Of a stretch of DNA of 29,398 nucleotides, positions 6,912 through 28,976 are shown one piece after another (the first letter of the stretch is position 1; each line of letters opens with the position of its first letter). The notes under the pieces are model-generated. The model worked only from the letters and a program-made list of their open reading frames with translations. It was not told the origin of the DNA and ran no database searches. The translations under genes were made by a program, and so were the position numbers. This stretch comes from a virus, in IMG/VR virus record IMGVR_UViG_3300025671_000354, positions 1 through 29,398 of that record; one strand, given 5' to 3'.

Positions 6912-6914
6912 CCT

Positions 6915-9988: not shown

Positions 9989-10140
9989 CCGGCGGTTATT
10001 ATATCGATTTAATAGCCGAAGTTAGTTTAGCCGCCGGACTAAACCCTATGGAAGTAGCGGAGTTACCGTTACCGATTTTTTTGGCACTTCAAAACGCTTT
10101 ACAAAAAAGAGCCGAGCAGGAAAAAAAGAAATATGGCTAA
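9722..10140 (+). CDS. Tail assembly chaperone fusion (gpGT-like, by -1 frameshift)
   Basis: A -1 shift in the A_GGG_GGC context at 9967-9973 would join the first 84 residues to 55 residues encoded in the overlapping frame (RRPGVTGG, then YYIDLIAEVSLAAGLNPMEVAELPLPIFLALQNAL and a Lys-rich end), a 139-aa product. The downstream frame has no plausible ribosome-binding site of its own; its first ATG (9934) would only re-read the upstream gene out of frame. G/GT frameshifting at this locus is widespread in siphoviruses. The heptamer is not an ideal X_XXY_YYZ, so the exact slip point is uncertain. The fusion overlaps the next gene by 8 bases. Confidence 0.72.
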
Positions 10141-10732
10141 AACCTTTCAATACAATACCGCAAAAGACGGCGGACTAGCCGTCGAGGGTCTTAATGATGT
10201 TATAAAGGGACTTAACGAGTTATCGCAGGGTAAAGAAGTTAAGAAAGAGCTAAGAGGCTTTCATAAAGAGATCTCTAAAGAGGTACAAAGTGCTACTAGA
10301 TCACAAGCATTAAAGCAGAGTGTAAACGGTAGGCCGGTACCAAAAAGAACGCAGGGAGCCAAAGGTTATGTAGGTGGTGGTACGGATCGTATCGCTTACC
10401 TCGATATAAGACGTACTAATAAGTTTGTACGTAACTTAGAGTTTGGTAGAAAATATCAATTTTTAAATTTTTATAATAGCTCACAAGCTAAAGGAAGATC
10501 CGTAAGCTCTAACGCTACCGGTATATTTTTTCCGGCTAGCGAACTTAAAAGAAGAGTGTATAAAAAATGGTTTGGGGATCTATGGAAATCTAGCGATGAT
10601 TTCCCGGAGGGTAACAAATACGTAGGTTATGTAGCCGAGCCAACAATAGCTAAAGCAGTACCTAAGATTACAGAAAATTATAGCGAAGAGATGATGAATT
10701 TAATTAAGAGATCTATAAAGGAAAATAAATAA
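10133..10732 (+). CDS. HK97 gp10-like tail/neck protein (probable)
   Basis: A 199-aa basic protein with an N-terminal helical stretch GLNDVIKGLNELSQGKEVKKELRGFHKEISKEVQ, as in HK97 gp10-like tail completion proteins. The later part has RTNKFVRNLEFGRKYQF and a long aromatic-rich region without known motif. Gp10-like genes usually lie before the tail tube; here it sits between the chaperones and the tape measure, which is unusual and leaves open a different minor tail role. The ATG overlaps the end of the GT frame by 8 bases, and its stop overlaps the tape measure start by 1 base. Confidence 0.6.
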   Translation: MAKTFQYNTAKDGGLAVEGLNDVIKGLNELSQGKEVKKELRGFHKEISKEVQSATRSQALKQSVNGRPVPKRTQGAKGYVGGGTDRIAYLDIRRTNKFVRNLEFGRKYQFLNFYNSSQAKGRSVSSNATGIFFPASELKRRVYKKWFGDLWKSSDDFPEGNKYVGYVAEPTIAKAVPKITENYSEEMMNLIKRSIKENK

Positions 10733-12939
10733 TGGCAGCTAATAGCGAGAAAACATTAAGGTTTACGTTTTTAGCAGATACTAAAAAGTTTTTAGGTAAC
10801 GTAGGTAAAGTCGGTAAGAAATTTAGCGATGTAGGCGCCGAAATGAAGAAAACCGGAGATACGGTTAATAAGATTTTCGCCGGTATTGGTGTAGCTGCGG
10901 GAGCGGCCGCTACTAAGTCTATTACTGCTTTTAGAGATTTCGAAACCGGTATGAACGAAGTTTTTACGTTGTTACCGGGTACAAGTAAAGAAACTTTTGA
11001 CCAAATAAATAAAGATGTTTTAAAACTTTCTAAAGAGATCGGTAAATTACCCGAAGATGTTATACCGGCTCTATACGATAGCCTTTCTGCCGGTGTACCG
11101 CCGGATAATGTATTTACTTTCCTAGAAGTAGCTAATAAATTAGCCGTAGGTGGAGCTACCGATTTAGGAGTAGCGGTAGACGGTTTAACTACCGTAGTAA
11201 ACGCTTTTGGTAGCGATGTTATTAGCGTAGGCGAGGCAAGCGATATTATATTTACTGCGGTAAAAGGTGGTAAAACAACAGTAGAAGAACTATCTAACGC
11301 TATGTTTAATGTTGCTCCTATTGCTGCGTCTATGGGTATAGAGTTTGGTAATGTTACGGCCGCAGTTGCTACACTTACCGCCTCGGGTACTCCTACAAGC
11401 GTAGCTATGACTATGATTAGACAAGCATTAAGCGAATTAGCTAAACCAACTTCTAAGCTATCACAATTATTTTTCGAATTGACCGGAAAGTCTTTTGAAG
11501 AGTTTATAGCAAGTGGTGGAAATCTTAAAGAGGGTTTCGATATTATTAAAAAAGGAGCCGAGGCTAACGGTAAACCTTTAGCCGAATATGTAGGATCCGT
11601 AGAGGCTTTAGGCGCTATCCAAACACTTACCGGTAAAGGCGCCGATAAATTCGCAAGTGAAATAGAGAACGCCGCTAATGCAGTTGGAGCAACCGACGCC
11701 GCTTTCGAGCAGGGGTCGCAGGGTATAGGATTAGTTTTAGAAAAATTAAAAGCAGGGTTTCAAGTTTTACAAATAGAAATCGGGCAGAAATTAGCTCCAC
11801 TACTTTTAGAGGCAATAGATAACATACAAAAGAAATTTAAAGAGATCCAACCGGGGTTAAAGGCTTTCATAGATAATGTTAGATCTTTCTTTACAAGCGA
11901 TGAAGTACAAAACACTATAAAAAGACTTACTAAGGCTTTCCAAGATCTAGGAGATAGACTAAGGCCGGTATTTGATCGTATACAAAAGTTTTTCCAAGCT
12001 AACCCTAAAGTATTATTTACAGGTTTAGCAGTAGTTATAGGTGGAATACTTTTAGCTAGTGTTATATCTTTAGCTAGTGCTTTCGCTGCACTATTTAGCC
12101 CGGTTACGATCATAATAGCCGCTATTGCTGCTTTAGCCGGTGGCTTTAGATATGCTTATGATAACTTCGAGGGTTTTAGGAACTTCGTAGATAATAGTAT
12201 TAGTTTCCTTAAAAATTTATTTAGTAACTTTATATCTTTCTTTCAAAGCGACGGGTTTGTAGGAGCTTTTAATAAAGGTTTAGATTTCGTTAAAACTCAA
12301 TTTAGTTTATTAAAAGATATATTTAAAGGTGTAGTAGATTTTATAAAAGCTCTTTTTAGTGGAGATGTTAGCGGAGCAGTAGAGGCACTAAAAGGAATAT
12401 TTAAGAATTTATTAACTTTCTTTAAGAATAATTGGAATTTATTAGGTACTTTAAAAGATGTATTTATAGGAGCTTTAACAAAAGCTAAGGATTTTATTTG
12501 GCCTAGATTAAAAGAGTTTGGTAAAGGCTTTATAGAAACTATTACTACGGTACTTAAAACTAGTGGTAGCGTAGTGCTAGAGGGTGTTAAGTTTGTATTT
12601 AATAAAGTCATAGATAAGATCAACGGTTTTATTAACGATCTAAATAGTGGATTAGCTTTTAGTTTTTTTGGTATCGATATAGACCCGCCCGATATACCGA
12701 ATATACCGAGGTTGGCTAAAGGTGGTATCGTAACTAAGCCCACTATCGCACAAATTGGCGAAGAGGGGGCGGAGGCTATTATACCTTTACCGTCGGGAGT
12801 TGGCGGCGGACTTGGCCTAGGTGGTAATAACTACAATATAACCGTAAACGCCGGTATTGGTACAGACGGAGCAGACGTAGGCCGATTAATAGTCGAGCAG
12901 ATAGAAAAATATAATAGACGTAATCTAAGGATTGTTTAA
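10732..12939 (+). CDS. Tail tape measure protein
   Basis: The 735-aa product sets tail length and is ejected ahead of DNA. Residues about 50-330 match the TP901-type core (AFRDFETGMNEVFTLLPG..., ALYDSLSAGVP, ANKLAVGGATDLGVAVDGLTTVVNAF, SMGIEFGNVTAAVATLTASGTP). A hydrophobic stretch at about 424-470 can insert in membrane. Long amphipathic helices follow, and near 660-690 comes the common LAKGGIVTKPTIAQIGEEGAEAIIPL ending. Using the usual 0.15 nm per residue, the tail would be near 110 nm. It is preceded by the chaperone genes and followed without gap by the baseplate gene. Confidence 0.92.
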   Translation: MAANSEKTLRFTFLADTKKFLGNVGKVGKKFSDVGAEMKKTGDTVNKIFAGIGVAAGAAATKSITAFRDFETGMNEVFTLLPGTSKETFDQINKDVLKLSKEIGKLPEDVIPALYDSLSAGVPPDNVFTFLEVANKLAVGGATDLGVAVDGLTTVVNAFGSDVISVGEASDIIFTAVKGGKTTVEELSNAMFNVAPIAASMGIEFGNVTAAVATLTASGTPTSVAMTMIRQALSELAKPTSKLSQLFFELTGKSFEEFIASGGNLKEGFDIIKKGAEANGKPLAEYVGSVEALGAIQTLTGKGADKFASEIENAANAVGATDAAFEQGSQGIGLVLEKLKAGFQVLQIEIGQKLAPLLLEAIDNIQKKFKEIQPGLKAFIDNVRSFFTSDEVQNTIKRLTKAFQDLGDRLRPVFDRIQKFFQANPKVLFTGLAVVIGGILLASVISLASAFAALFSPVTIIIAAIAALAGGFRYAYDNFEGFRNFVDNSISFLKNLFSNFISFFQSDGFVGAFNKGLDFVKTQFSLLKDIFKGVVDFIKALFSGDVSGAVEALKGIFKNLLTFFKNNWNLLGTLKDVFIGALTKAKDFIWPRLKEFGKGFIETITTVLKTSGSVVLEGVKFVFNKVIDKINGFINDLNSGLAFSFFGIDIDPPDIPNIPRLAKGGIVTKPTIAQIGEEGAEAIIPLPSGVGGGLGLGGNNYNITVNAGIGTDGADVGRLIVEQIEKYNRRNLRIV

Positions 12940-14172
12940 ATGGCACAACCTACGGTTAGAGTTAGATTAGGTTTTACTCCCGATACCTTTACGCTAGACG
13001 ATCTAGTTAGAGGTGTATTAGATACCGGGCAACTTGGAGGAGCCGTAACCTTAACCGATGTAACCGCAGACGTACAAAACATCGCTATAAGTCGTGGTAG
13101 ATCTAAGGATTTAGATAGCTTTTTTACGGGTAGTTGTGCAATTAAATTATTAAATAACTCTAGAAAATACGAAAATACTAATACTAGTAGCCCTTATTAT
13201 CCGGGTATCGAGCCTTTTATCGTTATGCACGTCGACGCTACTACGGACGGAGGATCTACATACGAAGATCTATTCGTAGGTTTTGTAGCGGATATACAAC
13301 TAACATACCCGGATAGTAATAACTCTTTCGCTACTTTTACCGGTTTTGATAGTTTTATGAAAATTAATAATACGGAATTAGTTAACGCTAGTTTTAGTAG
13401 TACCGATAGCGGAACTATGATCGATAATATTTTAAGTAGTAGTACAGTAAAATTTAGTACCGGAAATAGAGATATTGAAACCGGAGTAAGCACTATGCAA
13501 GCTCTTAGCGGTGTAACAGATAATACGCTTAGTTTATTACAAACTATAGAACGTAGCGAAAACGGATTATTATTTATGTCTAAAAGCGGTAAATTGACGT
13601 TTAGAAATAGGCATACCACTTATCCAAGTACAGTAACTAAAACTTTTAGCGATGACGGTAGCGATATACCGTACGTAAAAGTAGATTATATAAACGACGA
13701 TAACGAGATCTACAATATTATTAACTTAACTCGTGAGGGTGGATCTACACAAACACAAGAAGATATAGGATCACAATTAAAATATTTGATCCGTACATTA
13801 ACTAGATCCGGACTTTTAAACGATAATGATACAGAAGTTAACGACGCTGCTTTATTTTTATTAGGTAAATATAAAGACGCTTTATTACGTTTTGATAATT
13901 TAGAAGTTAACGTAGTAGATCTAAATACATCTAATCAAAACTTGATCCTAGAAAGTGAAGTGGGAGATATTGTAAATATTGAGTTAACACCACCGGGTAG
14001 TGGTAGCCCAAGTCAAATAGTTAGCTTAGAAGTATTAGACGCTATAAGTTATAGTATTACACCCGATACCTTTAAAGTATCATATAAATTAAGTAGCGCT
14101 AACCAACAAGCCTTTTTAAGACTAGATAACGCTTTATTTGGAATATTAGATACAGATAAGTTAGGTTATTAA
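12940..14172 (+). CDS. Minor tail / baseplate protein downstream of tape measure
   Basis: A 410-aa beta-rich protein in the place where siphoviruses encode the distal tail and tail-hub proteins. The N-terminal ~130 residues (VRVRLGFTPDTFTLDDLVRGVLDTGQLGG, DVTADVQNIAISRGRSKDLDSFFTGSCAIKLLNNSRKY) look like the ring-forming part; the middle contains NTLSLLQTIERSENGLLFMSKSGKLTFRNR, a pattern common in hub-type proteins. The motif F.LDD...GVLDT is repeated at the C-terminus as LDNALFGILDTDKLGY, a short internal echo. It follows the tape measure with no gap. Distal tail versus hub is not resolved. Confidence 0.72.
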   Translation: MAQPTVRVRLGFTPDTFTLDDLVRGVLDTGQLGGAVTLTDVTADVQNIAISRGRSKDLDSFFTGSCAIKLLNNSRKYENTNTSSPYYPGIEPFIVMHVDATTDGGSTYEDLFVGFVADIQLTYPDSNNSFATFTGFDSFMKINNTELVNASFSSTDSGTMIDNILSSSTVKFSTGNRDIETGVSTMQALSGVTDNTLSLLQTIERSENGLLFMSKSGKLTFRNRHTTYPSTVTKTFSDDGSDIPYVKVDYINDDNEIYNIINLTREGGSTQTQEDIGSQLKYLIRTLTRSGLLNDNDTEVNDAALFLLGKYKDALLRFDNLEVNVVDLNTSNQNLILESEVGDIVNIELTPPGSGSPSQIVSLEVLDAISYSITPDTFKVSYKLSSANQQAFLRLDNALFGILDTDKLGY

Positions 14173-14217
14173 TGTCATATAGCTATAGAAAACAACAAGA
14201 AAGGATAAACTAAAACT

Positions 14218-14664
14218 ATGCCTAGTGGATTTAAAGTATTCGCTACCGGAGAAGTATTAACGGCTAGCGATGTAAACAATTATTTAATGGAGCAAAGTAT
14301 CTGCGTTTTCGCAGACGCTACCGCTCGGGACGCCGCAATTACAAGCCCGGAAAACGGACAATTTGTATTTTTAACCGGATCTACAACACTTCAATTTTAT
14401 AACTCCGGTTGGTCGAATTTTATTGGAGAGGGCGATATTACCGGGGTAACGGCAGGTGCCGGTTTAAGCGGTGGTGGTACTAGCGGAGCAGTAACATTAG
14501 CTTTAGATATAAACGGACAATCAAGCGTTACAGCTGCCGTAGGCGATGAATTTTTAATAGCAGATGTAGATGACAGTAATAATATTAAAAAAACTACCGT
14601 GCAAGATATTGTAGACCTTATACCCGCCGGTGTTTCATTAGGTTTAGTATTAGCTTTATCATAA
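14218..14664 (+). CDS. Tail fibre-like protein, N-terminal attachment type
   Basis: A 148-aa protein beginning MPSGFKVFATGEVLTASDVNNYLMEQSICVF, a start shared by many phage fibre or baseplate-attached proteins, followed by ARDAAITSPENGQFVFLTGSTTLQFYNSGW and the Gly/Ser-rich GDITGVTAGAGLSGGGTSGAVTLAL typical of trimeric fibre shafts. The last part (VGDEFLIADVDDSNNIKKTTVQDIVDLI) is another frequent fibre module. Probably a short fibre or adaptor onto which other fibres attach. A GAAAGGA sequence lies upstream in the 45-base gap. It retains the CpG-rich composition of the tail genes. Confidence 0.7.
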   Translation: MPSGFKVFATGEVLTASDVNNYLMEQSICVFADATARDAAITSPENGQFVFLTGSTTLQFYNSGWSNFIGEGDITGVTAGAGLSGGGTSGAVTLALDINGQSSVTAAVGDEFLIADVDDSNNIKKTTVQDIVDLIPAGVSLGLVLALS

Positions 14665-14679
14665 GAAAGGAATAAAATT

Positions 14680-15006
14680 ATGGCAGATACATTACACTCG
14701 GTACAGGGAGTATTAGGAACTAGCGCCGGAGATATTATAGACGCAGTACCAAGCTCTACTACCGAAACGGTTATAGGTATTTTAGTTTCCAACGTAAGCT
14801 CTAGTAATGCAGACGTAACTATAGATTTAAGCGTAACTAAAAGCGGTGGTACTTTAAGACACATATTAAATGATGTTTCACTACCTTTTGGAACTACTAT
14901 AGAAATTACTACTAAAATTACCTTAGAAACCGGGGACGTATTACAGGGTTTATGCTCCGCCGCGTCAAGCGCAGAATACAACGTATCATTTCTTAGACAA
15001 ACCTAG
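14680..15006 (+). CDS. Small beta-rich tail-associated protein
   Basis: A 108-aa protein made mostly of predicted strands (ETVIGILVSNVSSSNADVTIDLSVTKSGG, TTIEITTKITLETGDVLQGLCS). The pattern is that of a small beta-sandwich often found among fibre-region proteins of marine phages. It has a GAAAGGA ribosome-binding site about 8 bases before its ATG. No catalytic motif is seen. It is the last gene with native CpG content before the adhesin array. A role in fibre attachment or tail-tip decoration is inferred only from place and fold. Confidence 0.58.
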   Translation: MADTLHSVQGVLGTSAGDIIDAVPSSTTETVIGILVSNVSSSNADVTIDLSVTKSGGTLRHILNDVSLPFGTTIEITTKITLETGDVLQGLCSAASSAEYNVSFLRQT

Positions 15007-15017
15007 AGGGGCTAATT

Positions 15018-15617
15018 ATGGCTTACTTAGGTCAACAACCAAATAATGTAAAACAAAATATTGGTTTATATACCCCTAGCGATATTTTACAATTAAAAAA
15101 AGACGGTATTTGGGGTGGCTCATTAGAACTTATTGCTGAACAAACTGTTAGTTCAGTTAGTACAGTAGATTTTACTTCTATTCAAGAGAGTAAATTTGAT
15201 GTACACCTTTTGCAGTTTTTTTTAACAGAGTTAACAGGTGCTTTAAGAATTCAAATATCAAATAATGGTGGAAGTTCTTTTATTACTAGTGGCTATCAAT
15301 TTGCAAATCAATATGGTACTGTTACAGGAACTTTTGGAGAAGATAGGTCAACATCAACAACAAGTATTGGACCTTTTGGTAGTGGTGGAACTAACCTACA
15401 AAAAAATGGTTATGTATATTTTTACAATTTAGATAATAGTTCAAAATATAGTTTCACAACATTTCAAGGGTTTAACAATCATCCTTCATTAGGTTTTTAT
15501 ACCAATTTTGGTGGTGGTGTTTATCCAACTGCTGAAACACATAATGCAATAAGATTAGATGCTTTCACAGGTACTGCTACAGGTAATGCAAAACTCTATG
15601 GAGTAAAACAGATATGA
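15018..15617 (+). CDS. Adhesin/fibre-like protein A1 (anchor-bearing)
   Basis: First of six related genes. The 199-aa product has an N-terminal ~35-residue leader (QPNNVKQNIGLYTPSDILQL) that is also present in A2 at 16645 and is probably the virion anchor. The rest is a beta-rich receptor-binding-type domain with SLELIAEQTVSSVSTVDFT, a YVYFYNLDNSSKYSF core and a KLYGVKQ ending. These signatures recur in fibre proteins of marine phages that I recognise by pattern only. The last native CpG is at 15104; after that the gene is CpG-free, so the anchor part and the binding part may differ in origin. It overlaps B1 by 4 bases. Confidence 0.68.
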   Translation: MAYLGQQPNNVKQNIGLYTPSDILQLKKDGIWGGSLELIAEQTVSSVSTVDFTSIQESKFDVHLLQFFLTELTGALRIQISNNGGSSFITSGYQFANQYGTVTGTFGEDRSTSTTSIGPFGSGGTNLQKNGYVYFYNLDNSSKYSFTTFQGFNNHPSLGFYTNFGGGVYPTAETHNAIRLDAFTGTATGNAKLYGVKQI

Positions 15618-16132
15618 GTAATCTAAGATTAATTAATGAAACTACTGTAACAAGTGCAGTAAGGTCAGTTAATATAACAGATGTTTTTTCAGCAGATTTT
15701 GATATATATAAAATTGTAGGAAATACAAATTTCACAGGAGAAGAATATATAGATTTTAGATTAATTAACTCTAGTGGAAGTGTTGTTAGTGCAAGTAATT
15801 ATGATAATGCAGGACTTCTTATGCAAAGTAGTACAAGTTTTAGTGAAAATAAAAATACTAATGTAACTAAATCACAATACTTATCTTATGCAGGAGATGT
15901 TGAAGCAGAAGCTGGAAGTTTTACAACTTATGTTTTTAATCCCTTTAACAGTTCTAGTTATACATTTTTAATTTCACAGGGTGGTGCTAAAAGAAGTGCA
16001 AATACATTAATTACAAAAAGTATTTCTGTTTTAAAACAAACATCATCAATAACAGGATTTCAATTATTGCCAAATACATCAGATGTTGATAATGCAAGTA
16101 TAAGAACTTATGGATTGAGAGTAGATAGCTAA
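15614..16132 (+). CDS. Adhesin/fibre-like protein B1
   Basis: The 172-aa product pairs best with the one at 17269: both have TDVFSADFDIYKI / TDCFSADYDVYEI, a SxxYD segment (ASNYDNAGLLMQSSTSF), a NPFNSSSYTF core and SVLKQTSSITGF near the end. It lacks the N-terminal leader of the A proteins, so it may associate with A1 rather than attach on its own. No CpG occurs in the whole gene. The ATG overlaps the end of A1 (ATGA-type overlap) and the stop overlaps the start of C1 (TAATG), so A1-B1-C1 are co-translated. Confidence 0.65.
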   Translation: MSNLRLINETTVTSAVRSVNITDVFSADFDIYKIVGNTNFTGEEYIDFRLINSSGSVVSASNYDNAGLLMQSSTSFSENKNTNVTKSQYLSYAGDVEAEAGSFTTYVFNPFNSSSYTFLISQGGAKRSANTLITKSISVLKQTSSITGFQLLPNTSDVDNASIRTYGLRVDS

Positions 16133-16644
16133 TGGCAGGACAATTAGTACAAGTAGCAACAAATACAGTAAGTAGTCCTGTGTCATCAGTTACCTTAACA
16201 GGAATAGATAGTGATGATCTTTATATGGTTGCAGTAAGTGGGGCAACAGTTAGTAATCCTGTTGCAGAAATTAGAGCTAGATTTACAGTAAGTGGGACTG
16301 CACAAACAACTTCTAATTATGATTGGGCAGATAAGTTTTTAAGAGCAAGTGCAAGTTTTATAAATGATTATGCTACAAACCAAACAAAAACAAGAGCTTT
16401 AAACAACACAGGAGATAGTGGTGGAGAGGGCAGTAATGGTATTTTTTATTTATATAATTTTAATAATGCAAGTGAATATAGTTTTATGACAATAGAAAAT
16501 GTTACTGAAAATGGAACTGAAGCAAGAGGATATGAAGGTGGAACAGTTTATACAGTTGCAGAGGCACATAATGGAATACAATTTTTAAATGATACAACAG
16601 GCAACATAACAAGTGGAACTTTTACAATGTACAGGGTGGTTTAA
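16132..16644 (+). CDS. Adhesin/fibre-like protein C1
   Basis: The 170-aa product starts MAGQLVQVATNTVSSPVSSVTLTGIDSDDLYMVAVSG and pairs with C2 at 17784, which starts MAGSLIKIDEEIVTSAVASITLGG. Shared parts are TSNYDWADK, the ATNQT segment, IFYLYNFNNASEYSF and a GNITSGTFTMYRV ending. This is the most canonical version of the fold shared by all six. It has no leader and no CpG. Its stop is followed directly by the A2 start, so the second set follows the first with no gap. Confidence 0.65.
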   Translation: MAGQLVQVATNTVSSPVSSVTLTGIDSDDLYMVAVSGATVSNPVAEIRARFTVSGTAQTTSNYDWADKFLRASASFINDYATNQTKTRALNNTGDSGGEGSNGIFYLYNFNNASEYSFMTIENVTENGTEARGYEGGTVYTVAEAHNGIQFLNDTTGNITSGTFTMYRVV

Positions 16645-17265
16645 ATGAGTGAATATGGATACATACCAGAAGCACCAGAACAAAGTTTTGGAAATAATAA
16701 AGGGATCTTTACACCTAAAGATATTTATGATCTAACAAGAGCAGATAAATACACTAACTATGGACAATTAGAATTAATTGAAACTCAAACTGTTAGTGGT
16801 GTTAGTGCAGTAGATTTTACAAATTTAGGAAATTATAATGTTCACTTTTTAACAGGAAATAATTTAGAAAGTGCAAGTAATAATATTAGATATGGAGTTA
16901 GATTTTATGAGAGTGGTGTTTTAGAAACTGCAACTGTTTATCAATGGGCTTATCAACAACAATTGTCCAGTGGTAGTGGTTCAGAATTTAAAGCTACTTC
17001 TCATTCAAGTATTCCAATACAAATTGAACAACCAACAGGATTTAATGGTGGTGGATATACTTATTTATATAATTTAATAGACAGTTCAAAATATTCATTC
17101 ACTAGTAATCAGCACAATAGAGTTTCTAACTCAATGATTGCAGAATTTGGGAGTGGTGTAATGCCACAAGCAAGTGAAGTAACAGGATTTCAAATAAGTG
17201 GTTATGATAGTTCTACTCCTAATTTTTCAGCTACATTTTCTCTATATGGAATTGCAGAGAGTTAG
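16645..17265 (+). CDS. Adhesin/fibre-like protein A2 (anchor-bearing)
   Basis: A 206-aa paralog of A1. The N-terminal leader NKGIFTPKDIYDLTRADKY corresponds to A1's NIGLYTPSDILQLKKDG. Then GQLELIETQTVSGVSAVDFTNL matches A1's SLELIAEQTVSSVSTVDFTSI, and YTYLYNLIDSSKYSF, FGSGVMPQA and FSLYGIA match the core and end. The middle third differs strongly in sequence, as expected of receptor-facing surfaces. No CpG is present, even in the leader, unlike A1. A 3-base gap separates it from B2. Confidence 0.65.
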   Translation: MSEYGYIPEAPEQSFGNNKGIFTPKDIYDLTRADKYTNYGQLELIETQTVSGVSAVDFTNLGNYNVHFLTGNNLESASNNIRYGVRFYESGVLETATVYQWAYQQQLSSGSGSEFKATSHSSIPIQIEQPTGFNGGGYTYLYNLIDSSKYSFTSNQHNRVSNSMIAEFGSGVMPQASEVTGFQISGYDSSTPNFSATFSLYGIAES

Positions 17266-17268
17266 ATT

Positions 17269-17784
17269 ATGGCAGGAAATTTAGAATTTATAACATCTGC
17301 TAGTGGAAGTTCTGTTAGTTCATTATCTGTAACAGATTGTTTCAGTGCTGATTATGATGTGTATGAAATTTATGTTACTAGCTATGAACAATCAGCAGTA
17401 GCAGATAGTAGATTTTCATTATTAGATAGTGGTGGAAGTGAAATAACAAGTGCTAATTATGATAGTTGTTATTTAGCTTTATCATCTTCTTCTGCTTTTA
17501 CAGAGGGTAGGCAAACTGCACAAACTCATTTTAGAGATTTTAGTTTTAGTGTTACCAATTATGCATACACTATTGGTGTAAAAATAGTAATGTATAATCC
17601 TTATGACAGTTCTAGTTACACATCTTGTCAATGGCAATCAGCTTATTATCAAACAGGTAGTGCAAGTCAAGGTAAAAAAGGAATAGGTGTTTTGAAATCA
17701 GCACAAACTTGTACAGGAATAAAATTTTTTGGTAGTACAGGAAATCTTAATGATGTTCAAGTTTCAATTTTTGGAGTTAAATAA
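17269..17784 (+). CDS. Adhesin/fibre-like protein B2
   Basis: A 171-aa paralog of B1, in the same relative position. Shared features are the VSSLSVTDCFSADYDVYEIYV start, ITSANYDSCYLALSSSSAF, MYNPYDSSSYTS and GIGVLKSAQTCTGIKF before a VSIFGVK ending. It carries five Cys scattered through the domain, while B1 has none, so any disulphide or metal use would be specific to this copy. The stop overlaps the C2 start by 1 base. No CpG occurs. Confidence 0.64.
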   Translation: MAGNLEFITSASGSSVSSLSVTDCFSADYDVYEIYVTSYEQSAVADSRFSLLDSGGSEITSANYDSCYLALSSSSAFTEGRQTAQTHFRDFSFSVTNYAYTIGVKIVMYNPYDSSSYTSCQWQSAYYQTGSASQGKKGIGVLKSAQTCTGIKFFGSTGNLNDVQVSIFGVK

Positions 17785-18305
17785 TGGCAGGTAGCTTAAT
17801 AAAAATAGATGAAGAAATAGTTACATCAGCAGTAGCAAGTATAACTTTAGGTGGTGCTAATTGGGATAGTTCTTATGATGTGTATGTTGTAAAAGTAAAT
17901 AATTGTATTCCTGTAAATGATGGTGTATCTCATTATATGAGGATAACTAAATCTGGAACACCCGATACAACTTCTAATTTAGATTATGCTTATAAAGATT
18001 TAAGAACATACTCAGCATTTGCAAATGATTCTGCTACAAATCAAAGTCTATTAAATTTTGGTTTTGCAGGAACAGGTGGTAGTGAGGGTTTAAATACTAC
18101 TATGTATTTATTTAACTTTAATTCAAGTTCTGAATATAGTTTTGGAACAGTAGAAACTACAACTTTAAATTCAGCACAACAACTTAGAGGGCTACAGGGT
18201 GGATTTGTCCATAAAGTTGCTAGTGCAAGTGATGGAGTACACTTTTTTTTCAGTAGTGGAGACATAGCAAGTGGAACATTCACTTTATATGCTTTAAAGA
18301 AGTAA
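17784..18305 (+). CDS. Adhesin/fibre-like protein C2
   Basis: A 173-aa paralog of C1 ending the array. It shows ANWDSSYDVYVVKVNNCIP, TTSNLDYAYKDLR, DSATNQS, MYLFNFNSSSEYSFGT, a LRGLQGGFVHKVASASDGVHF stretch and the DIASGTFTLYALKK ending. The only CpG in the 3.3-kb array lies here (17963-17964). It is followed by a 31-base gap with a TAGGAGA ribosome-binding site for the next gene. Confidence 0.66.
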   Translation: MAGSLIKIDEEIVTSAVASITLGGANWDSSYDVYVVKVNNCIPVNDGVSHYMRITKSGTPDTTSNLDYAYKDLRTYSAFANDSATNQSLLNFGFAGTGGSEGLNTTMYLFNFNSSSEYSFGTVETTTLNSAQQLRGLQGGFVHKVASASDGVHFFFSSGDIASGTFTLYALKK

Positions 18306-18336
18306 GTATAAGAAATATATAGTAAGATAGGAGAAT

Positions 18337-18639
18337 ATGGCAACATTAGAAGAACTAACAGTTATAGCAACTCAAGAAATTGAGGACGCTAAACCAATGT
18401 ATAAGCAAGTTAATAATGAAAGACTTGAATTTACAGATAGTGATTATGCACAAGCTGTAACAGACTTGGCTAATAGCAAATGGGATACTCAACAGTTTGG
18501 TTATGTACAAGCTAGACAAGAGGCTTATGGTTCTATTGCTGACCAGTTAGATATGCAATACTGGGATAATGTTAATGGTACTACTGTTTGGGCGGATCAT
18601 ATAGCAGAAGTTAAAGCTAACAACCCTAAACCGGCCTAG
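18337..18639 (+). CDS. Small fibre-associated protein
   Basis: A 100-aa protein with the C-terminal pattern ARQEAYGSIADQLDMQYWDNVNGTTVWADHIAEVKANNPKP. I recognise this as a module commonly found beside or at the end of tail fibre genes in marine phages, where it may aid fibre assembly; its function is not established. Ribosome-binding site TAGGAGA precedes the ATG. Composition changes within the gene: CpG is nearly absent at first and returns in the last 50 bases, so the right boundary of the CpG-free block runs through it. Confidence 0.6.
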   Translation: MATLEELTVIATQEIEDAKPMYKQVNNERLEFTDSDYAQAVTDLANSKWDTQQFGYVQARQEAYGSIADQLDMQYWDNVNGTTVWADHIAEVKANNPKPA

Positions 18640-18915
18640 TTGACCGAACTTCAAAAAATGCGGGCTATAGCTTTAGAGCGAGCCGGTAATAAATGCGAGT
18701 GGCCGGAGTGTATTAATTACGATCAATGGTTAGAAATGGCGCATATACACGGTATAGGTATGGGCGGTAACCCTAAACGTAAATATGATATAGATAACGT
18801 AGCGATGTTATGTAAATTACACCACGATATTTACGACGGTCGCACTATATCACTATCAAAAAAGGAGTGGCGCATACTGCTAAAATCGTATTTAGATTAT
18901 GAGCGACAACAATAA
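18640..18915 (+). CDS. HNH endonuclease-like protein
   Basis: A 91-aa protein with an HNH fold: CEWPEC (19-24), LEMAHIHGIGMGG (31-43), IDNVAMLCKLHHDIYDG (52-68). The Cys pairs would hold structural zinc and the His residues the catalytic metal. The TTG start at 18640 follows the stop of the upstream gene directly, and no ATG gives the full domain. It could be a free-standing homing-type nuclease carried at the edge of the adhesin block, or a phage DNA-processing enzyme. A second, different HNH gene lies at 28969 in the terminase-linked position. CpG content is native here. It overlaps the next gene by 17 bases. Confidence 0.78.
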   Translation: MTELQKMRAIALERAGNKCEWPECINYDQWLEMAHIHGIGMGGNPKRKYDIDNVAMLCKLHHDIYDGRTISLSKKEWRILLKSYLDYERQQ

Positions 18916-19084
18916 CTACACTCAAAAGGAAATGACGGCTAAAATTATGCTAGATATTGAAAAGATTTTTAATAAATTAGACGAATTACAAAAAGATATT
19001 AACACGAGGCCAACTAGAGCCGAAATATACGGGTGGATCATCGCCGGGATTTCAATAGCTACACTTGTAAACGTTTTATTGTAA
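18899..19084 (+). CDS. Small tail-anchored coiled-coil protein
   Basis: A 61-aa protein with a charged helical N-terminal part (MTAKIMLDIEKIFNKLDELQKDI) and a single C-terminal membrane helix (IYGWIIAGISIATLVNVLL). The start ATG lies inside the end of the HNH gene, and the stop overlaps the next start (TAATG). First of a run of small membrane proteins that probably act in lysis or membrane modification. It resembles holin or antiholin partners in size only. Confidence 0.6.
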   Translation: MSDNNNYTQKEMTAKIMLDIEKIFNKLDELQKDINTRPTRAEIYGWIIAGISIATLVNVLL

Positions 19085-19296
19085 TGAAACCCCAAGTTAA
19101 TCTATCACAAATACTTCAAGGCGGTTTAGCAGCCTTAGTAGGTTGGTTATTTAAAACCGTAAACGATTTACAACAATTAGTCGCCGTATCGGAAATACAA
19201 ATACAAAAACTAGAGGAAAATATAGTAGCTTTAGCATTAAGAGAACGTGAATTAAATTCTGCTATAACTGAAATCTTGATTAAGCTAGGTGGATAA
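19084..19296 (+). CDS. Small membrane protein with coiled coil
   Basis: A 70-aa protein with one membrane segment at about 10-26 (ILQGGLAALVGWLFKTV) followed by a coiled coil (LVAVSEIQIQKLEENIVALALRERELN) and the tail NSAITEILIKLGG. I chose ATG 19084 because it overlaps the previous stop as TAATG; the open frame reaches upstream but without a suitable start. The last 13 residues are echoed by a 14-residue frame at 19771. Overlaps the next gene by 1 base. Role unknown; lysis-region membership is inferred. Confidence 0.58.
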   Translation: MKPQVNLSQILQGGLAALVGWLFKTVNDLQQLVAVSEIQIQKLEENIVALALRERELNSAITEILIKLGG

Positions 19297-19769
19297 TGTT
19301 TGTTAAAATTAAAGAGAATATAGGTTTAATAGCTACGGCTATTGCTTTAATGGGTACTATAGGTACCGGGCTTAGTACCGCTGCAAATATTGTTAATACC
19401 TTACAAGGTATAGATGACCGTATGAATAATATCGAATACGAATTTAATACATTAAAAGAAAGTACATACGTTCAAAACGATATAGCGGTGCTTTATGAAA
19501 AAATACAAGATTTAGAAATGGCTGCTAGTAACTTAGGTAGGGCTAACGAAACTATAGCTTACTTACAAAGTGAAATTGCTAATCTAAGGCAAGCCGTAGA
19601 TAATAGCGGGTGGGACTTAGACCAAAAATACATCCCGGAAAAATGGGAGTGGCAAGATATAAACGACAAAACTATACGTATGGAAACACAAATACAAAAC
19701 TTACAGCAAAAATTATGGGAAATAGACGTATTAGATGACCGTATTACTTGGCTAGAGAGTAACCGATAA
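19296..19769 (+). CDS. Membrane-anchored coiled-coil protein
   Basis: A 157-aa protein with an N-terminal hydrophobic helix (IGLIATAIALMGTIGTGLSTAANIV, about 9-33) and a long heptad-rich remainder (IDDRMNNIEYEFNTLKES, VLYEKIQDLEMAASNL, IAYLQSEIANLRQAV, METQIQNLQQKLWEIDVLDDRITWLES). It could form a rod reaching across the cell wall space from the membrane. Such shape recalls spanins, but without an outer membrane in most actinobacteria that role would not apply directly. Co-translated with the gene before it. Confidence 0.6.
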   Translation: MFVKIKENIGLIATAIALMGTIGTGLSTAANIVNTLQGIDDRMNNIEYEFNTLKESTYVQNDIAVLYEKIQDLEMAASNLGRANETIAYLQSEIANLRQAVDNSGWDLDQKYIPEKWEWQDINDKTIRMETQIQNLQQKLWEIDVLDDRITWLESNR

Positions 19770-19770
19770 A

Positions 19771-19815
19771 TTGGATAGCGCAATTACCGATATACTAATT
19801 AAATTAGGTGGATAG
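19771..19815 (+). pseudogene. Vestigial duplicate of the 19084 gene's 3' end
   Basis: TTG at 19771 opens a 14-codon frame reading MDSAITDILIKLGG, nearly the same as the last residues (NSAITEILIKLGG) of the protein ending at 19296, with the same GGTGGATA run into the next start. It looks like the remnant of a tandem duplication and deletion. It may now serve only to couple translation into the gene at 19815. Confidence 0.4.
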
Positions 19816-19988
19816 TGAAAAATATTCTACAAGATCATATAGAAGATTGGTCTAAACCTTTTGTAGCGTGTTTGTTAGGTATGACTTCCGGGATAGATCT
19901 AAGTTTAGGACACGTCTTTATAGCAAGTAAAACCGCAACTATTGCTCTAGTGCTAGGTATAATTATTAAAAAGATTAAAAAGGCTTAA
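19815..19988 (+). CDS. Small two-helix membrane protein (holin-like)
   Basis: A 57-aa protein with GTG start overlapping the preceding TAG. The charged N-terminus (DHIEDWSKP) precedes two hydrophobic segments, about 16-36 and 40-51 (TATIALVLGIII), and ends KKIKKA. Size, double membrane span and basic tail are holin-like. A clearer holin lies next to the endolysin at 22606, so this could be a second pore protein or antiholin. No direct evidence decides. Confidence 0.52.
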   Translation: MKNILQDHIEDWSKPFVACLLGMTSGIDLSLGHVFIASKTATIALVLGIIIKKIKKA

Positions 19989-19989
19989 T

Positions 19990-20070
19990 ATGGACGTTTT
20001 ATTAATAATAGTTACAGTAATAGGAGTTAACTATCTAGCGTGGTGGTTAATAAAGAAAGGTAAGATATAA
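19990..20070 (+). CDS. 26-aa single-span membrane micropeptide
   Basis: ATG at 19990 opens a 26-codon frame made of one membrane helix (LLIIVTVIGVNYLAWWLI) and a basic end KKGKI. It lies 1 base after the preceding stop and 2 bases before the next start, in a string of tiny genes that leaves no unused space. The ribosome-binding site is weak, so translation would rest on coupling. Translation is plausible but unproven. Confidence 0.38.
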   Translation: MDVLLIIVTVIGVNYLAWWLIKKGKI

Positions 20071-20072
20071 CT

Positions 20073-20162
20073 ATGTGCAAAGTATATAAAAAAGACGACG
20101 GATCTTTCGTACAAGTATGTAACTGCAAGCACGGGAGCGAGAATTGCGAGAATAATAAATAA
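20073..20162 (+). CDS. 29-aa Cys-rich micropeptide
   Basis: ATG at 20073 gives 29 residues with Cys at 2, 16, 18 and 25 and His at 20 (VCNCKHGSENC). The cluster could bind a metal or form disulphides. An AAAGG sequence upstream could act as a ribosome-binding site. Its stop overlaps the next start (TAATG), which supports translation. No family recognised. Confidence 0.4.
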   Translation: MCKVYKKDDGSFVQVCNCKHGSENCENNK

Positions 20163-20311
20163 TGGATTATATTTTAGGATTTTTATTAGGATTTTTTTTA
20201 AAAGATATTGGTAACTTTATTAAAAGAGTAAGCCAAGAAGATTGGTCTAACCGAAATTACTACGATAGATCTTACAAGTGGTTAGATCTAGACGAAGACG
20301 ATTTATCTTAA
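20162..20311 (+). CDS. Small membrane protein with acidic tail
   Basis: A 49-aa protein with an N-terminal hydrophobic helix (YILGFLLGFFLKDIGNFI) and a polar part ending in an acidic stretch (WLDLDEDDLS). Start overlaps the stop of the Cys-rich peptide. It is the last of the membrane cluster at 18899-20311 and is followed by a promoter-like region. Function unknown. Confidence 0.48.
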   Translation: MDYILGFLLGFFLKDIGNFIKRVSQEDWSNRNYYDRSYKWLDLDEDDLS

Positions 20312-20344
20312 AACGTTTAAAATGTCGTAAAAGACGTTTATAAT
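20311..20344 (+). promoter_or_regulatory. Promoter with two AAACGTTT-like sites
   Basis: TATAAT at 20339-20344 lies 34 bases before the ATG at 20378. The palindrome AAACGTTT (20311-20318) is echoed by AGACGTTT (20332-20339), 21 bases away, two turns of helix, so both would face the same side of DNA. The second touches the -10 box. This is the layout of an operator, although no regulator in the window can be tied to it. Confidence 0.42.
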
Positions 20345-20377
20345 AGCTTATAAGTTATACAGAAACGGGGCTATTAA

Positions 20378-20647
20378 ATGACAAATATAGATCTAGATAC
20401 TTTCGTAAAAGGTAAAATAAAAGCACACCCTAGAAAATTCGAGGTTAGATACCCGAACGAAACCGAAACTATCATAAACTTACTCAAACAAGCAATAGAA
20501 AAAGCTAAAGACCCTTTAGCTTATCGATACAACTACTTAACGATAGCCGAATATTGCCAAGAGGTATTAGGTTACAATATGGTTAGCGAAGACGGATTAC
20601 GCAAGATTATTGCACGTATCGCTAAGGCAAATGGTTGCGAGTTATGA
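20378..20647 (+). CDS. HTH-like DNA-binding protein (probable)
   Basis: An 89-aa protein whose second half, LTIAEYCQEVLGYNMVSEDGLRKIIARIAKANG (about 54-86), reads as helix-turn-helix: a helix with an AEYCQEV core, a turn with a Ser, and a recognition-type helix. The first half is a helical INLLKQAIEKAKD region. It ends in ATGA overlap with the metallophosphoesterase, so the two form a translation unit and perhaps a complex that brings the enzyme to DNA. A weak GGGG precedes the start. Confidence 0.5.
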   Translation: MTNIDLDTFVKGKIKAHPRKFEVRYPNETETIINLLKQAIEKAKDPLAYRYNYLTIAEYCQEVLGYNMVSEDGLRKIIARIAKANGCEL

Positions 20648-21855
20648 ATTTAGACGAGTTTGTAGAAAGTAGGAAAGACGTACCGACTACTAACGGTAAA
20701 AAAATAAAACCTAGTGGCGATTGGATCCCCGGTATTGAAATGAACGGATCTAAAGGCACTATAACAACTAAAGCAATACCAAAAGGTAACCCTAATTGGG
20801 ACGAGTGGATAGATTATTGGCTAGGGGACGGATCTAGTAAAGACTTTTACGTAAGAGAAGATGAGCCGGTTAACTTTCGTACGTGGCAAGGTTGGGGCAA
20901 AGACGGAATACAAAACTTTTATTATTTTAAAGCTAACATCTATGCAAGAAAAAATAACAAGTATGACGATAAAGAGCTTAAACGTTTAATTAGCAACGCT
21001 AAGAAGAAAAAGCCTAAAAACAAAACTAAAACTAAAAATAAAAAAGCTTTTGTAATATGTATGAGCGATTGGCAAGTCGGTAAAGAGGGTAGCGAAAATA
21101 TGTTAAAACGCTACTACGAGAGCCTCGACGCTATAGATAAACAAATAAAATATTTAAAAAAGAAATATGACGATCTAGATAAGTTAATAATCGTAGGATT
21201 AGGCGATCTCGTCGAGGGGTGCAGCGGGTTTTATCCTATGCAACAATTTACAACCGTCTTAGATGAACGCCAACAGAAAACACTAGCTCGACGTATGCTC
21301 TTAGACGCTTTTAATAAATTTAGTAACGAATTTAACGAGGTACTAGGCCTATGTTGTGCCGGTAACCACGGAGAAAAAAGAATAGGTACAAAAGCCTATA
21401 CAACTTTTGGGGATAATAAAGATTTAGAATTATTCGACGAAGTAGCACAAGTCTTAAAAGCAGATCCAACAAAACAACACGTTAAATTTACGATCCCGGA
21501 TAATAGTTTGGCGTATAGTGTAGAAGTCTTACCCGATGTAGTGTTAACCGTAGCACACGGCCACCAAGCTAAACGAGGAACGACACCGGCCGCTAGGGTA
21601 GAGAATTGGTTTAATAAAATGGCTAGTAAGCCGTCTAAAGGTGGATTTTATGCTACTAACGTATTGTTAGTAGGTCATTACCACCACTTTTGGAGTAAAG
21701 AAAGCGAGAGGCTTTTACTAGGTACAACGACCCTAGACGACGGCTCACAATGGTTTGAAGAAAGCGGAGGAGAAAAAAGCGTACCGGGTATAACAACCCT
21801 AGTTTTACAAAGTAGAAAAAATTTACGAAAATGGAGTGATATAGAGATATTATGA
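20644..21855 (+). CDS. Calcineurin-like metallophosphoesterase
   Basis: A 403-aa protein with the ordered two-metal phosphoesterase motifs: MSDWQVGK (D-type site, about 138-145), GLGDLVEG, CAGNHGE, VAHGHQ and LVGHYHH. The first ~130 residues form a separate region ending in a Lys-rich linker (KKKKPKNKTKTKNKK). Enzymes of this group in phages are usually thought to be nucleases or nucleotide phosphatases, in the manner of SbcD/Mre11; substrate cannot be read from sequence. I chose ATG 20644 (ATGA overlap with the previous stop) over the in-frame TTG three codons earlier. The end overlaps the endolysin start. Confidence 0.85.
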   Translation: MNLDEFVESRKDVPTTNGKKIKPSGDWIPGIEMNGSKGTITTKAIPKGNPNWDEWIDYWLGDGSSKDFYVREDEPVNFRTWQGWGKDGIQNFYYFKANIYARKNNKYDDKELKRLISNAKKKKPKNKTKTKNKKAFVICMSDWQVGKEGSENMLKRYYESLDAIDKQIKYLKKKYDDLDKLIIVGLGDLVEGCSGFYPMQQFTTVLDERQQKTLARRMLLDAFNKFSNEFNEVLGLCCAGNHGEKRIGTKAYTTFGDNKDLELFDEVAQVLKADPTKQHVKFTIPDNSLAYSVEVLPDVVLTVAHGHQAKRGTTPAARVENWFNKMASKPSKGGFYATNVLLVGHYHHFWSKESERLLLGTTTLDDGSQWFEESGGEKSVPGITTLVLQSRKNLRKWSDIEIL

Positions 21856-22628
21856 GTACGAGAAGAGGTAGTAGTAATTGGTATTTAGAGAATTGGGCTA
21901 ACGCCTTAGGTAATACCGAGGATCTAATAATTATAAATTTTAACGGTAGGGGTAGAGCAAGAATTAATAAAGCAGTATTGCCGGCCTTTACATTATTAAA
22001 TATGTGCTTAGTAGAAGATGAGTACATAACGCATAGGAAAACAACCGGAGGCTATAACTTTAGAAAGATAGCTAATAGTAATAGGTATAGTTGCCACGCT
22101 TACGGTTTAGCAGTAGATATAAATTGGGATCTTAACCCGGTAACGAGGGACGGATCTACTAAAACAAATTTTAAAGACAATACGATCAAAAAGATACTAG
22201 ATATTAAAACACAAGACGGTTTACAAGTATTTAGGTGGGGAGGAGATTATAGAAGTTATAAAGATCCTATGCACTTCGAGATATTTGTAACCCCGGAAGA
22301 ATTAAATAAAGGGATCATACGTAAAAATTTTGATCAAAGAGAATATATTAAGTTAGGTTTATCGGTTAAACCATTAAGGAAAGGCGATAAAGGGGACGGA
22401 GTTAAATATATTCAAGAGCTTTTAAATAGCGTTTTAAATCGAACTTTAATTACCGACGGAGATTTCGGTAGCCTAACCCAAGCCTCCGTATTGGTTTTCC
22501 AAAAGAAAGCCGGGCTAATTGAAGACGGTATCGTAGGATCTAATACCTACTCTAAATTAATGGAGTTTAGAAATGCTAAAATGACAGAGGAAAGGAATAA
22601 GATTAATGGCAAATACAGGATCGAATAA
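21852..22628 (+). CDS. Endolysin: M15-type peptidase plus peptidoglycan-binding domain
   Basis: The 258-aa protein cuts cell-wall peptides for host lysis. The N-terminal domain has the M15/VanY zinc site: H82 and D89 in SCHAYGLAVDINW and H141 in DPMHFEI, with D138 at the place of the catalytic acid. Residues about 172-238 match the peptidoglycan-binding type 1 repeat (LRKGDKGDGVKYIQELLN, ITDGDFGSLTQASVLVFQKKAGL, DGIVGSNTYSKL). No signal peptide is seen, so release depends on a holin. The holin gene overlaps its end. The start ATGA overlaps the phosphoesterase stop. Confidence 0.9.
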   Translation: MSTRRGSSNWYLENWANALGNTEDLIIINFNGRGRARINKAVLPAFTLLNMCLVEDEYITHRKTTGGYNFRKIANSNRYSCHAYGLAVDINWDLNPVTRDGSTKTNFKDNTIKKILDIKTQDGLQVFRWGGDYRSYKDPMHFEIFVTPEELNKGIIRKNFDQREYIKLGLSVKPLRKGDKGDGVKYIQELLNSVLNRTLITDGDFGSLTQASVLVFQKKAGLIEDGIVGSNTYSKLMEFRNAKMTEERNKINGKYRIE

Positions 22629-22836
22629 AAAAGATTGGAAAAAGTATTGGTCTTTTATGCTTTCAAAAGCGTTTAGAACAGGCCTACAGAGTGCTATTTC
22701 TTTATACTTGGCTAACTCTAGTGGAATAATTGACGCCGATTTAATACAACTTTTAGGCGTTTCATTTTTAAGCGGTTTTATTACAGTTATCCAACACGCA
22801 CTAGAACAATACAAGCCAAAACAAACTTATAATTAA
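22606..22836 (+). CDS. Holin
   Basis: A 76-aa protein directly linked to the endolysin (23-base overlap), with a good GGAAAGGA upstream. It has a charged N-terminus (NKKDWKKYWSF), two membrane segments (about 25-42, TGLQSAISLYLANSSGII, and 47-66, LIQLLGVSFLSGFITVIQHAL) and a polar EQYKPKQTYN tail. The pattern with VIQHALEQYKP near the end is like small holins of actinophages. It would form the pores that let the endolysin reach the wall. Last gene before a strong terminator. Confidence 0.8.
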   Translation: MANTGSNKKDWKKYWSFMLSKAFRTGLQSAISLYLANSSGIIDADLIQLLGVSFLSGFITVIQHALEQYKPKQTYN

Positions 22837-22938
22837 AATAGAGTTAAAAATATAAATAGACTATATTAATTAAAAGTGATTTAAAGAATTGCAACGCAAT
22901 ACAGACGTGAAAATACCCCCAAGTATAATCACGACCCT

Positions 22939-22982
22939 AAAATAGCCGGGATCCGCAAAACGCCCGGCTATTTTCTTTTTTT
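22939..22982 (+). terminator. Strong intrinsic terminator after the lysis genes
   Basis: AAAATAGCCGGG (22939-22950) pairs perfectly with CCCGGCTATTTT (22963-22974) around a 12-base loop; the right arm is followed by C and then a T9-10 run. It should end the late transcript. The core AGCCGGG...CCCGGCT is shared with the terminator at 9218. Confidence 0.92.
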
Positions 22983-23015
22983 TTAATAAATACACGCTTT
23001 TTTAAATTTATACCC

Positions 23016-23053
23016 TATAATGGTTTTATAAGAAAGATACTTGGGAGGTAAAA
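23016..23053 (+). promoter_or_regulatory. Promoter plus conserved leader, copy B
   Basis: TATAAT at 23016-23021, then 15 bases, then ATACTTGGGAGGT (23037-23049) whose GGGAGGT serves the GTG start at 23054. AAATACAC lies at 22988-22995, at nearly the same distance as in copy A. The unit lies just after the strong terminator, so it starts a new transcript, probably the early operon. Confidence 0.68.
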
Positions 23054-23239
23054 GTGAATTATACTTATCAACTAAAACATAAAAGGGTAGTTAATTGTAG
23101 ATTTTGTAAAAGTAGCAAGATCGTTAACACCGTAGATTATCTAAATGAGATCCAACAAGTTAGTTGCTTAGATTGTAGATCTAAATATCGTCAACACGGT
23201 AGAAATTTAGAGATTGTAAGAGAGGGGGTATTAAATTGA
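23054..23239 (+). CDS. Small zinc-ribbon protein, first gene of early operon
   Basis: A 61-aa protein with CRFC at 15-18 and CLDC at 38-41, a zinc-ribbon arrangement, and a basic profile. GTG start at 23054 follows the conserved leader. Being first in the operon next to a strong promoter suggests a role soon after entry, such as acting on host transcription; this is inference. Its Cys spacing and its leader match the cassette gene at 8969. The stop overlaps the TTG of the next gene. Confidence 0.7.
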   Translation: MNYTYQLKHKRVVNCRFCKSSKIVNTVDYLNEIQQVSCLDCRSKYRQHGRNLEIVREGVLN

Positions 23240-23685
23240 GTTATCAAATAGAGCTAGATAAAGAAAGAACTATTATAAGAAAATATACTTACAATAGTTA
23301 CGGAGGTGGAGTTGCTATCGGCACTACACCAACAATAGCGTATAGGATCATACTTAATTATTTTAAAGAGTATGGAGATCAAACCTTTACAGATTATTTA
23401 GTAACGGATCCTAATTTAGATTTTATAGAAATCTTTACGCAAAGTTACGACGAAGATAACAACGAGTTTAGTTATTTTTCTAGTCAAGTAATTAAGAAAG
23501 GCGATCCGGTAATTTTTAATAGTTACCGAGAGGAGCAGTACGGACTATTACAAGATTTTAATAATGGTGTTGTATGGATAAAAGATAATAATAATATTAT
23601 AGAAATATCTTTATATCGTTTCGCCGTTTTAAATTCTAATTACAACAAAGTAAAAATATTAGATAAGTGGGGAGCCTCATTATGA
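23236..23685 (+). CDS. Protein of unknown function, early region
   Basis: A 149-aa acidic protein rich in Tyr, Asn and Asp. TTG start at 23236 overlaps the previous TGA and has GAGGGGG just upstream. Strand-like segments (AYRIILNYFKEYG, DFIEIFTQSYDEDNNEFSYFS, VWIKDNNNIIEISLYRFAVL) suggest an alpha-beta domain. I do not recognise the family. ATGA overlap with the next gene indicates co-translation. It could be a host-interaction protein from its place. Confidence 0.65.
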   Translation: MSYQIELDKERTIIRKYTYNSYGGGVAIGTTPTIAYRIILNYFKEYGDQTFTDYLVTDPNLDFIEIFTQSYDEDNNEFSYFSSQVIKKGDPVIFNSYREEQYGLLQDFNNGVVWIKDNNNIIEISLYRFAVLNSNYNKVKILDKWGASL

Positions 23686-23819: not shown

Positions 23820-23821
23820 AT

Positions 23822-24134: not shown

Positions 24135-24136
24135 AA

Positions 24137-28328: not shown

Positions 28329-28976
28329 ATGCAATGGCAAGACGGGGCTAACTGCTTAGGATTAGATACAAACTTGTTTATTAACCCTAGTAGACATAAT
28401 TATACCGATAAAGAGGTGTGGAATACTTTTAATATATGCAGAAGTTGCCCGGTTAATTTAGATTGCCTAACCTATGCACTTAATAGCGATCTAGAGTATG
28501 GATTATATGCACTCCCGGAAAGAGTAAGGCGCCGTATAAGAAATAAAGATAACCTAAAAAAGTATATGGAAGATATGTATAAGACCTTAGACGTATTAGA
28601 CGCTACTTTCGATAATAAAGGAAAGTTAATAAAGAAACGTTGCTTACGTTGCCATAGATACGTTAAAGGCTTTAGTAAAGACAATACTAATTGGGGTGGC
28701 TTTAATCATATTTGTATAAGTTGTTACATAAGTACAAAAGATAAAAAGAGAGTAGATAAGTTATTAGATCGTGATAAAGCGTCGCAAAGTATGCCGGTGT
28801 TTAGTAAGCACGGGATCCTAGAGAGTAAGAATTGTACCAAGTGCGGTAAGAGGCAAGAGGCTAATAACTTTAGTAATAGACCCGCCGGGATAGGTGGTAA
28901 AACCTCGTGGTGTAAGAATTGTACAAGAAATAATCTAAAGAAATGGTTAGAGAAAAAGAAAAAAGAAAATGAATAG
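28329..28976 (+). CDS. WhiB-like regulator fused to two zinc-ribbon modules
   Basis: The 215-aa protein starts with a WhiB domain: C9, then C37-x2-C40-x5-C46 (CRSCPVNLDC), the canonical four Cys that hold a 4Fe-4S cluster, followed by YALNSDLEYGLYALPERVRRR in place of the usual GVWGG turn and basic helix. WhiB proteins bind the host sigma factor. After a linker come two similar zinc modules, CLRC...CISC (105-132) and CTKC...CKNC (169-198), each with G-rich spacing as in endonuclease VII-type ribbons. Cell WhiB proteins are about 80-140 aa, so this is a fusion. It overlaps the HNH gene by 8 bases. It marks the host as actinobacterial. Confidence 0.82.
   Translation: MQWQDGANCLGLDTNLFINPSRHNYTDKEVWNTFNICRSCPVNLDCLTYALNSDLEYGLYALPERVRRRIRNKDNLKKYMEDMYKTLDVLDATFDNKGKLIKKRCLRCHRYVKGFSKDNTNWGGFNHICISCYISTKDKKRVDKLLDRDKASQSMPVFSKHGILESKNCTKCGKRQEANNFSNRPAGIGGKTSWCKNCTRNNLKKWLEKKKKENE

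Follow-up and report, generated by a model that had tools for sequence, protein, structure and literature searches.

Avoidance of restriction sites has been described in phages, whose lineages differ in the short palindromes (CATG, GATC and GGCC, for example) that they have lost almost or entirely (Rusinov et al. 2018, PMC6286503). In broad-host-range plasmids, restriction targets are avoided more strongly (Shaw et al. 2023, PMC10359461). That study dealt with whole plasmids and targets of 6 bp, and the correlation with host range was absent for 4-bp palindromes. Receptor-binding module exchange is represented by the swapping of tail spikes in the Ackermannviridae (PMC8432352).

The locus considered here lies in a viral record 29,398 bases long, all of which was analysed (the window). 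It encodes a terminase, portal, protease, capsid protein, head–tail connector, major tail protein and tape-measure protein in siphophage order, with an array of six related genes following the tail genes. The main features are:

12940..14172, plus strand: tail protein, used as the backbone marker; a 72% relative is found in a Ca. Actinomarina single-cell genome (L161)
14218..14664, plus strand: tail-fibre-like gene with CpG as in the backbone
14680..15006, plus strand: tail-region gene of 108 aa preceding the array, 91–95% identical in amino acid sequence in other lineages
15018..15617, plus strand: array gene A1, 199 aa; the first 87 bases have backbone-like CpG, the remainder is CpG-free
15614..16132, plus strand: array gene B1, 172 aa, 0 CpG
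16132..16644, plus strand: array gene C1, 170 aa, 0 CpG
16645..17265, plus strand: array gene A2, 206 aa, 0 CpG; top relative (60%) in the CpG-free phage L090
17269..17784, plus strand: array gene B2, 171 aa, 0 CpG
17784..18305, plus strand: array gene C2, 173 aa, 1 CpG (17963); predicted β-sandwich (pLDDT 93.9)
18337..18639, plus strand: conserved gene D, 100 aa, following the array; the right CpG transition lies inside it, with CpG at 18387, 18593 and 18632
18640..18915, plus strand: small HNH-endonuclease-like gene directly 3' of D, with a weak HNH_2 match and an HNH motif visible in the sequence
28329..28976, plus strand: WhiB-domain gene (WhiB domain E 3.5e-10)

The WhiB-domain gene points to an actinobacterial host, and a contig from a single cell, Ca. 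Actinomarina AG-919-G14 (L161), carries the related tail protein as well as the same six-gene array plus gene D. The host of the window lineage is thus probably Ca. Actinomarina. The AG-919-G14 phage of Ca. Actinomarinales has itself been described, and the relevant part of its published account reports a WhiB fusion (PMC7771536). It shares the tail protein family, the six-gene array and the D gene with the window, in which WhiB occurs as a gene of its own. Unlike the near-zero block of the window, the array of the AG-919-G14 phage has a CpG observed/expected ratio (O/E) of 0.43.

The six array genes form a single superfamily in the order A1 B1 C1 A2 B2 C2. The C2 protein is modelled with confidence as an all-β sandwich, the nearest solved neighbours of which are galectins and the C-terminal domains of fructanases, with middling scores (VIA Z up to 8.4). 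Foldseek gave no match to the PDB at E 0.001 or better, while the model matches many phage proteins, some of them named tail fibre. A Pfam search of the array proteins gave nothing above the cut-off, PHROGs gave one weak match, and no relatives of the array were present among 50,697 deposited phages. The position after the tail genes and the lectin-like fold of the model are suggestive rather than conclusive, and the array proteins are likely to act as adhesins or lectins. The 108-aa protein preceding the array, 91–95% conserved among its relatives, is encoded with CpG O/E from 0.10 to 1.63 and constitutes a natural recoding series.

The array was originally predicted to be almost devoid of CpG, and this is borne out. 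Positions 15106–18386 hold one CpG (17963) against 75.9 expected from the C and G content of the block itself (O/E 0.013; Poisson P for at most one CpG about 1e-31), compared with an O/E of 1.39 in the remainder of the contig. The shift had also been described as gene-aligned, which is not exactly so: the nearest CpGs outside the block are at 15104 and 18387, and both edges fall within genes, the left one 87 bases into A1 and the right one 50 bases into gene D, with CpG remaining sparse up to 18593. The edges thus look recombination-like. A preference for GAT, AGT, GCA and AGA codons, likewise predicted, does exist but is mostly a by-product of the loss of CpG. When only codons not followed by G are counted, the C-ending fraction is 0.17 in the array and 0.23 in the backbone, and about 0.15 in CpG-rich arrays elsewhere under the same control. 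Codon usage as an independent sign of foreign origin was therefore discarded.

The backbone of the window is unusual as well, with a CpG rho of 1.37, a CpA/TpG rho of 0.60, and no CATG. With CpG over-represented and CA/TG low, it is the opposite extreme to its array, in which the CA/TG rho is 1.29, and the gap in CG is conspicuous in the window because the rest of the genome uses CG freely. Outside the block (1–15105 and 18387–29398), observed and expected counts are 0/23.8 for GANTC, 0/7.2 for GGNCC and 2/97 for CGCG.

The original prediction further held that the module had been imported recently, and comparison with related loci establishes the import of the array. In a near sister, L004, the tail gene of which is 95.4% identical in nucleotide sequence, the array is unrelated to that of the window (array CpG O/E 1.19, against 0.04 in the window). 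An array is held in common by none of 258 pairs of phages with 75–95% tail identity and by 9 of 24 pairs with 95–100%, and even identical tail genes can bear different arrays, as in L045, L046 and L047. Conversely, the arrays of L026 and L047 are 99.9% identical over 2.3 kb, while their tail genes are only 72.5% identical. Shorter stretches of shared array occur between L045 and L015, which has a CpG-rich backbone (713 bp at 93%), between L059 and the CpG-free L108 (659 bp at 96%), and between L046 and L087 (511 bp at 93.7%), the last two pairs linking CpG-bearing with CpG-free phages. Between these two groups, such shared stretches are 94–96% identical over 0.3–0.7 kb. On the tree of the last array gene, in which half of the inner branches are weakly supported, backbone class changes 42 times, against a mean of 44.4 after shuffling, so that the array tree ignores backbone class. 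Left junctions lie anywhere between 413 bases ahead of the first array gene and 86 bases within it. Arrays are thus replaced much faster than backbones diverge, and replacement between close backbones with incongruent trees marks this as exchange of a receptor-binding module.

From its single CpG, the residence of the window array is estimated at about 0.3% divergence, with an upper bound of about 1.6%, and has thus been short. No donor exceeding 90% identity across the full block was found. CpG-free genes on deep branches of the same backbone would have spoken for a long-standing feature; many backbones do carry CpG-free arrays, but these differ from one another and turn over more quickly than the backbones diverge. 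A reverse case is L058, with an array CpG O/E of 1.52 and a backbone O/E of 0.83. In 24 loci, an HNH-like gene directly follows D, including 8 of 9 loci of the CpG-rich class to which the window belongs and 0 of 16 CpG-free ones. This gene may be a homing driver of array exchange.

A source that avoids CpG was also proposed, and such phages do exist. Among loci related to the array or to the terminase of L105, we found a clade of marine siphophages nearly without CpG: 86 loci, some of the contigs being counted twice, have 23 CpG in 792,609 bases against 20,831 expected. The near-absence holds for all ten NCGN contexts. L105, L238, L210, L202 and about 80 further loci have zero to two CpG per contig. 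The lone CpGs are mostly shared coding sites in a TTCGGT context, and no regulatory site was seen at them. Relatives whose terminases are about 88–98% identical can have a CpG O/E of 0.05–0.37, so the CpG-free state changes on short evolutionary scales. The CA rho of CpG-free genomes is 1.11–1.22, with CpG at or near 0, compared with a CA rho of 1.29 in the window block. Several CpG-free phages encode adenine and cytosine methyltransferases; a C5-methyltransferase was considered as the cause of CpG tolerance and rejected, as such genes are also present in CpG-free phages. The CpG-free terminase, compared with 395 genomes of the host's class, gave only two matches, at 35%, and pointed to no host. 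L220 (7160–9067) and L216 (1–1398), relatives with a CpG O/E of about 0.3, encode a Glu/Ile-rich acidic repeat protein near the terminase; no match to it was found in the twelve CpG-free loci compared.

CG is not the only word to disappear. The window clade uses CpG freely and has no CATG, where 326 would be expected on the two strands together. GGCC too is missing from the CpG-free clade, and other lineages lack GATC, ACGT, GCGC or TCGA. Such lineage-specific missing words are the signature of restriction-site avoidance (cf. PMC6286503). In the arrays, the words were counted against Markov expectations and against synonymous shuffles, in which protein and codon usage are held fixed; the main claim rests on the latter, and for CATG the Markov expectation exceeds the synonymous one. 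By synonymous shuffle, the arrays of CpG-free phages have observed/expected counts of 2/70.5 for GANTC, 1/11.8 for CATG and 16/47.6 for GATC, whereas the corresponding backbone counts are 309/335, 144/181 and 322/300. Among 35 gene families in these phages, the array is a clear outlier (24/157), followed by a family at 3/7.5, the rest lying at 0.61–1.14; in CpG-bearing phages, the array family is again the outlier, for CpG. The result is reproduced in a second set of loci, fetched afterwards, in which arrays in word-tolerant backbones have 5/28.4 GATC, 2/22.9 GANTC and 1/4.5 CATG. The avoidance of CG, CATG, GATC and GANTC by CpG-poor arrays is thus independent of how the present backbone treats these words.

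Of the 4-letter palindromes and GANTC, arrays avoid those words that at least one backbone also avoids: CATG is avoided by 46 of 87 testable backbones, GATC by 20 of 97 and GANTC by 17 of 54. The loci were collected on the basis of similarity, are not independent of one another, and were divided into CpG-free, low, medium and rich groups by cuts of our own. Words avoided by no backbone (GTAC, CTAG, TGCA and TTAA among them) are near 1 in the arrays by the Markov estimate, although GTAC and CTAG are mildly low (0.65–0.83) by the synonymous test. GGCC, under-represented like the other four words by both Markov and synonymous estimates, is avoided by the arrays and, taken collectively, by the CpG-free genomes, but was not scored by the per-backbone threshold. 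A minority of arrays, located in backbones tolerant of CATG and GATC, have regained both words as well as CpG: arrays with a CpG O/E of at least 0.2 have 19/50 CATG and 42/69 GATC, compared with 1/151 and 26/145 in the others. By the strict test, the window array, with 0/1.4 CATG and 3/4.6 GATC, is too short to show avoidance of these words; alone, it is significant only for CpG and GANTC, and the window backbone also avoids GANTC. Its lack of CATG was considered as proof of a purge following the arrival of the block, and was set aside as not significant alone.

Together, these data strongly suggest a pool of cassettes with summed avoidance lists. The explanation that we favour, and which is probably correct, is that receptor-binding cassettes exchanged rapidly among marine siphophage lineages retain the restriction-site avoidance of all their carriers. 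A cassette of six β-sandwich adhesin paralogues would have been swapped into the window phage from a pool common to several of these lineages. Selection in each lineage would remove the words recognized by the restriction systems of its own hosts, the lists being CATG in the window lineage, CG with GGCC in the CpG-free one, and GATC or ACGT in others. A hopping cassette would have to pass the filter of every carrier, and would thereby come to avoid the sum of all the lists, provided that cassettes hop faster than new recognition words accumulate. That restriction is the cause we infer from the identity of the words. Actinomarinales genomes encode relatives of RE_NgoPII and RE_Bsp6I. NgoPII cuts GGCC and Bsp6I cuts GCNGC. 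No enzyme for CG, CATG, GATC or GANTC was identified in these genomes.

A simpler reading is that the array came from a single donor, a phage that avoids CpG throughout its genome, and that arrays are in no way special. CpG-free phages with this array family do exist, and arrays from different CpG classes reach 96% identity along part of their length. Even so, a single CpG-avoiding donor is too simple and appears unlikely: the arrays of CpG-free phages also avoid CATG, GATC and GANTC, which other gene families there do not do, or only weakly, and none of the backbones sampled was found to avoid CG, CATG, GATC and GANTC together, although an unsampled lineage that did so could be the sole source. 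If, on the other hand, the array itself were under selection in every phage, for instance because its DNA enters first and is exposed to nucleases, or for a reason of expression, it should stand out as a gene family in CpG-free and CpG-bearing phages alike, as it does. However, sister phages in the same backbone clade bear arrays with a CpG O/E of 1.08–1.64, and in some backbones tolerant of CATG and GATC, both words have returned to the array with CpG. The early-entry version also fits poorly with an array located among tail genes and not beside the terminase genes. Selection on the module alone, the alternative offered in the original prediction, is thus a poor fit, and we give it little credence.

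A mutational cause in the donor, either methylation of cytosine followed by deamination or a CpG-directed deaminase, would agree with the raised CA/TG of the block relative to the backbone. Mutation alone would hardly bring CpG near zero across some 0.8 Mb whatever the NCGN context, and CATG, GATC and GANTC are avoided as well, which makes this cause very improbable. Since the record is a metagenomic contig, the block might also be an assembly chimera of two unrelated contigs. This is hardly credible: a separate record, L003, crosses the left junction at 99.6% identity over 566 bp, and the same gene order is found in L013, L047, L111 and the single-cell contig L161.

On a broader reading, host-recognition cassettes constitute a gene pool whose distinctive lexicon combines the restriction words of all the lineages through which it has passed, and exist alongside a marine clade that has eliminated CpG, implying a host defence that reads a two-base word. 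On balance, we lean towards this reading. The CpG-free genomes suggest such a defence in bacterial hosts, and the arrays suggest selection for transferability acting on a gene cassette of phages and readable directly from the sequence; we found no description in the open-access literature of such selection, nor of CpG-free phage genomes or a defence with a two-base target. If the reading is true, horizontal circulation is itself something to which genes can adapt. The lexicon could then list the defences that a gene has recently met, and the restriction barriers that it has crossed could be reconstructed.

The nearest published parallel is the avoidance of targets by plasmids (PMC10359461). 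As in that system, the wider the range of defences encountered in the course of spread, the stronger the avoidance, but the unit here is a gene cassette within phage genomes, and the words are 4-bp palindromes, GANTC and CG. The loss of short palindromes lineage by lineage resembles that previously found in phages (PMC6286503). However, the two-base word CG is here eliminated genome-wide in one clade, and an exchanged cassette avoids more words than the genome that holds it. As in the Ackermannviridae (PMC8432352), host-recognition genes are replaced as a block, with the difference that the block consists of six tandem paralogues that have their own sequence lexicon.
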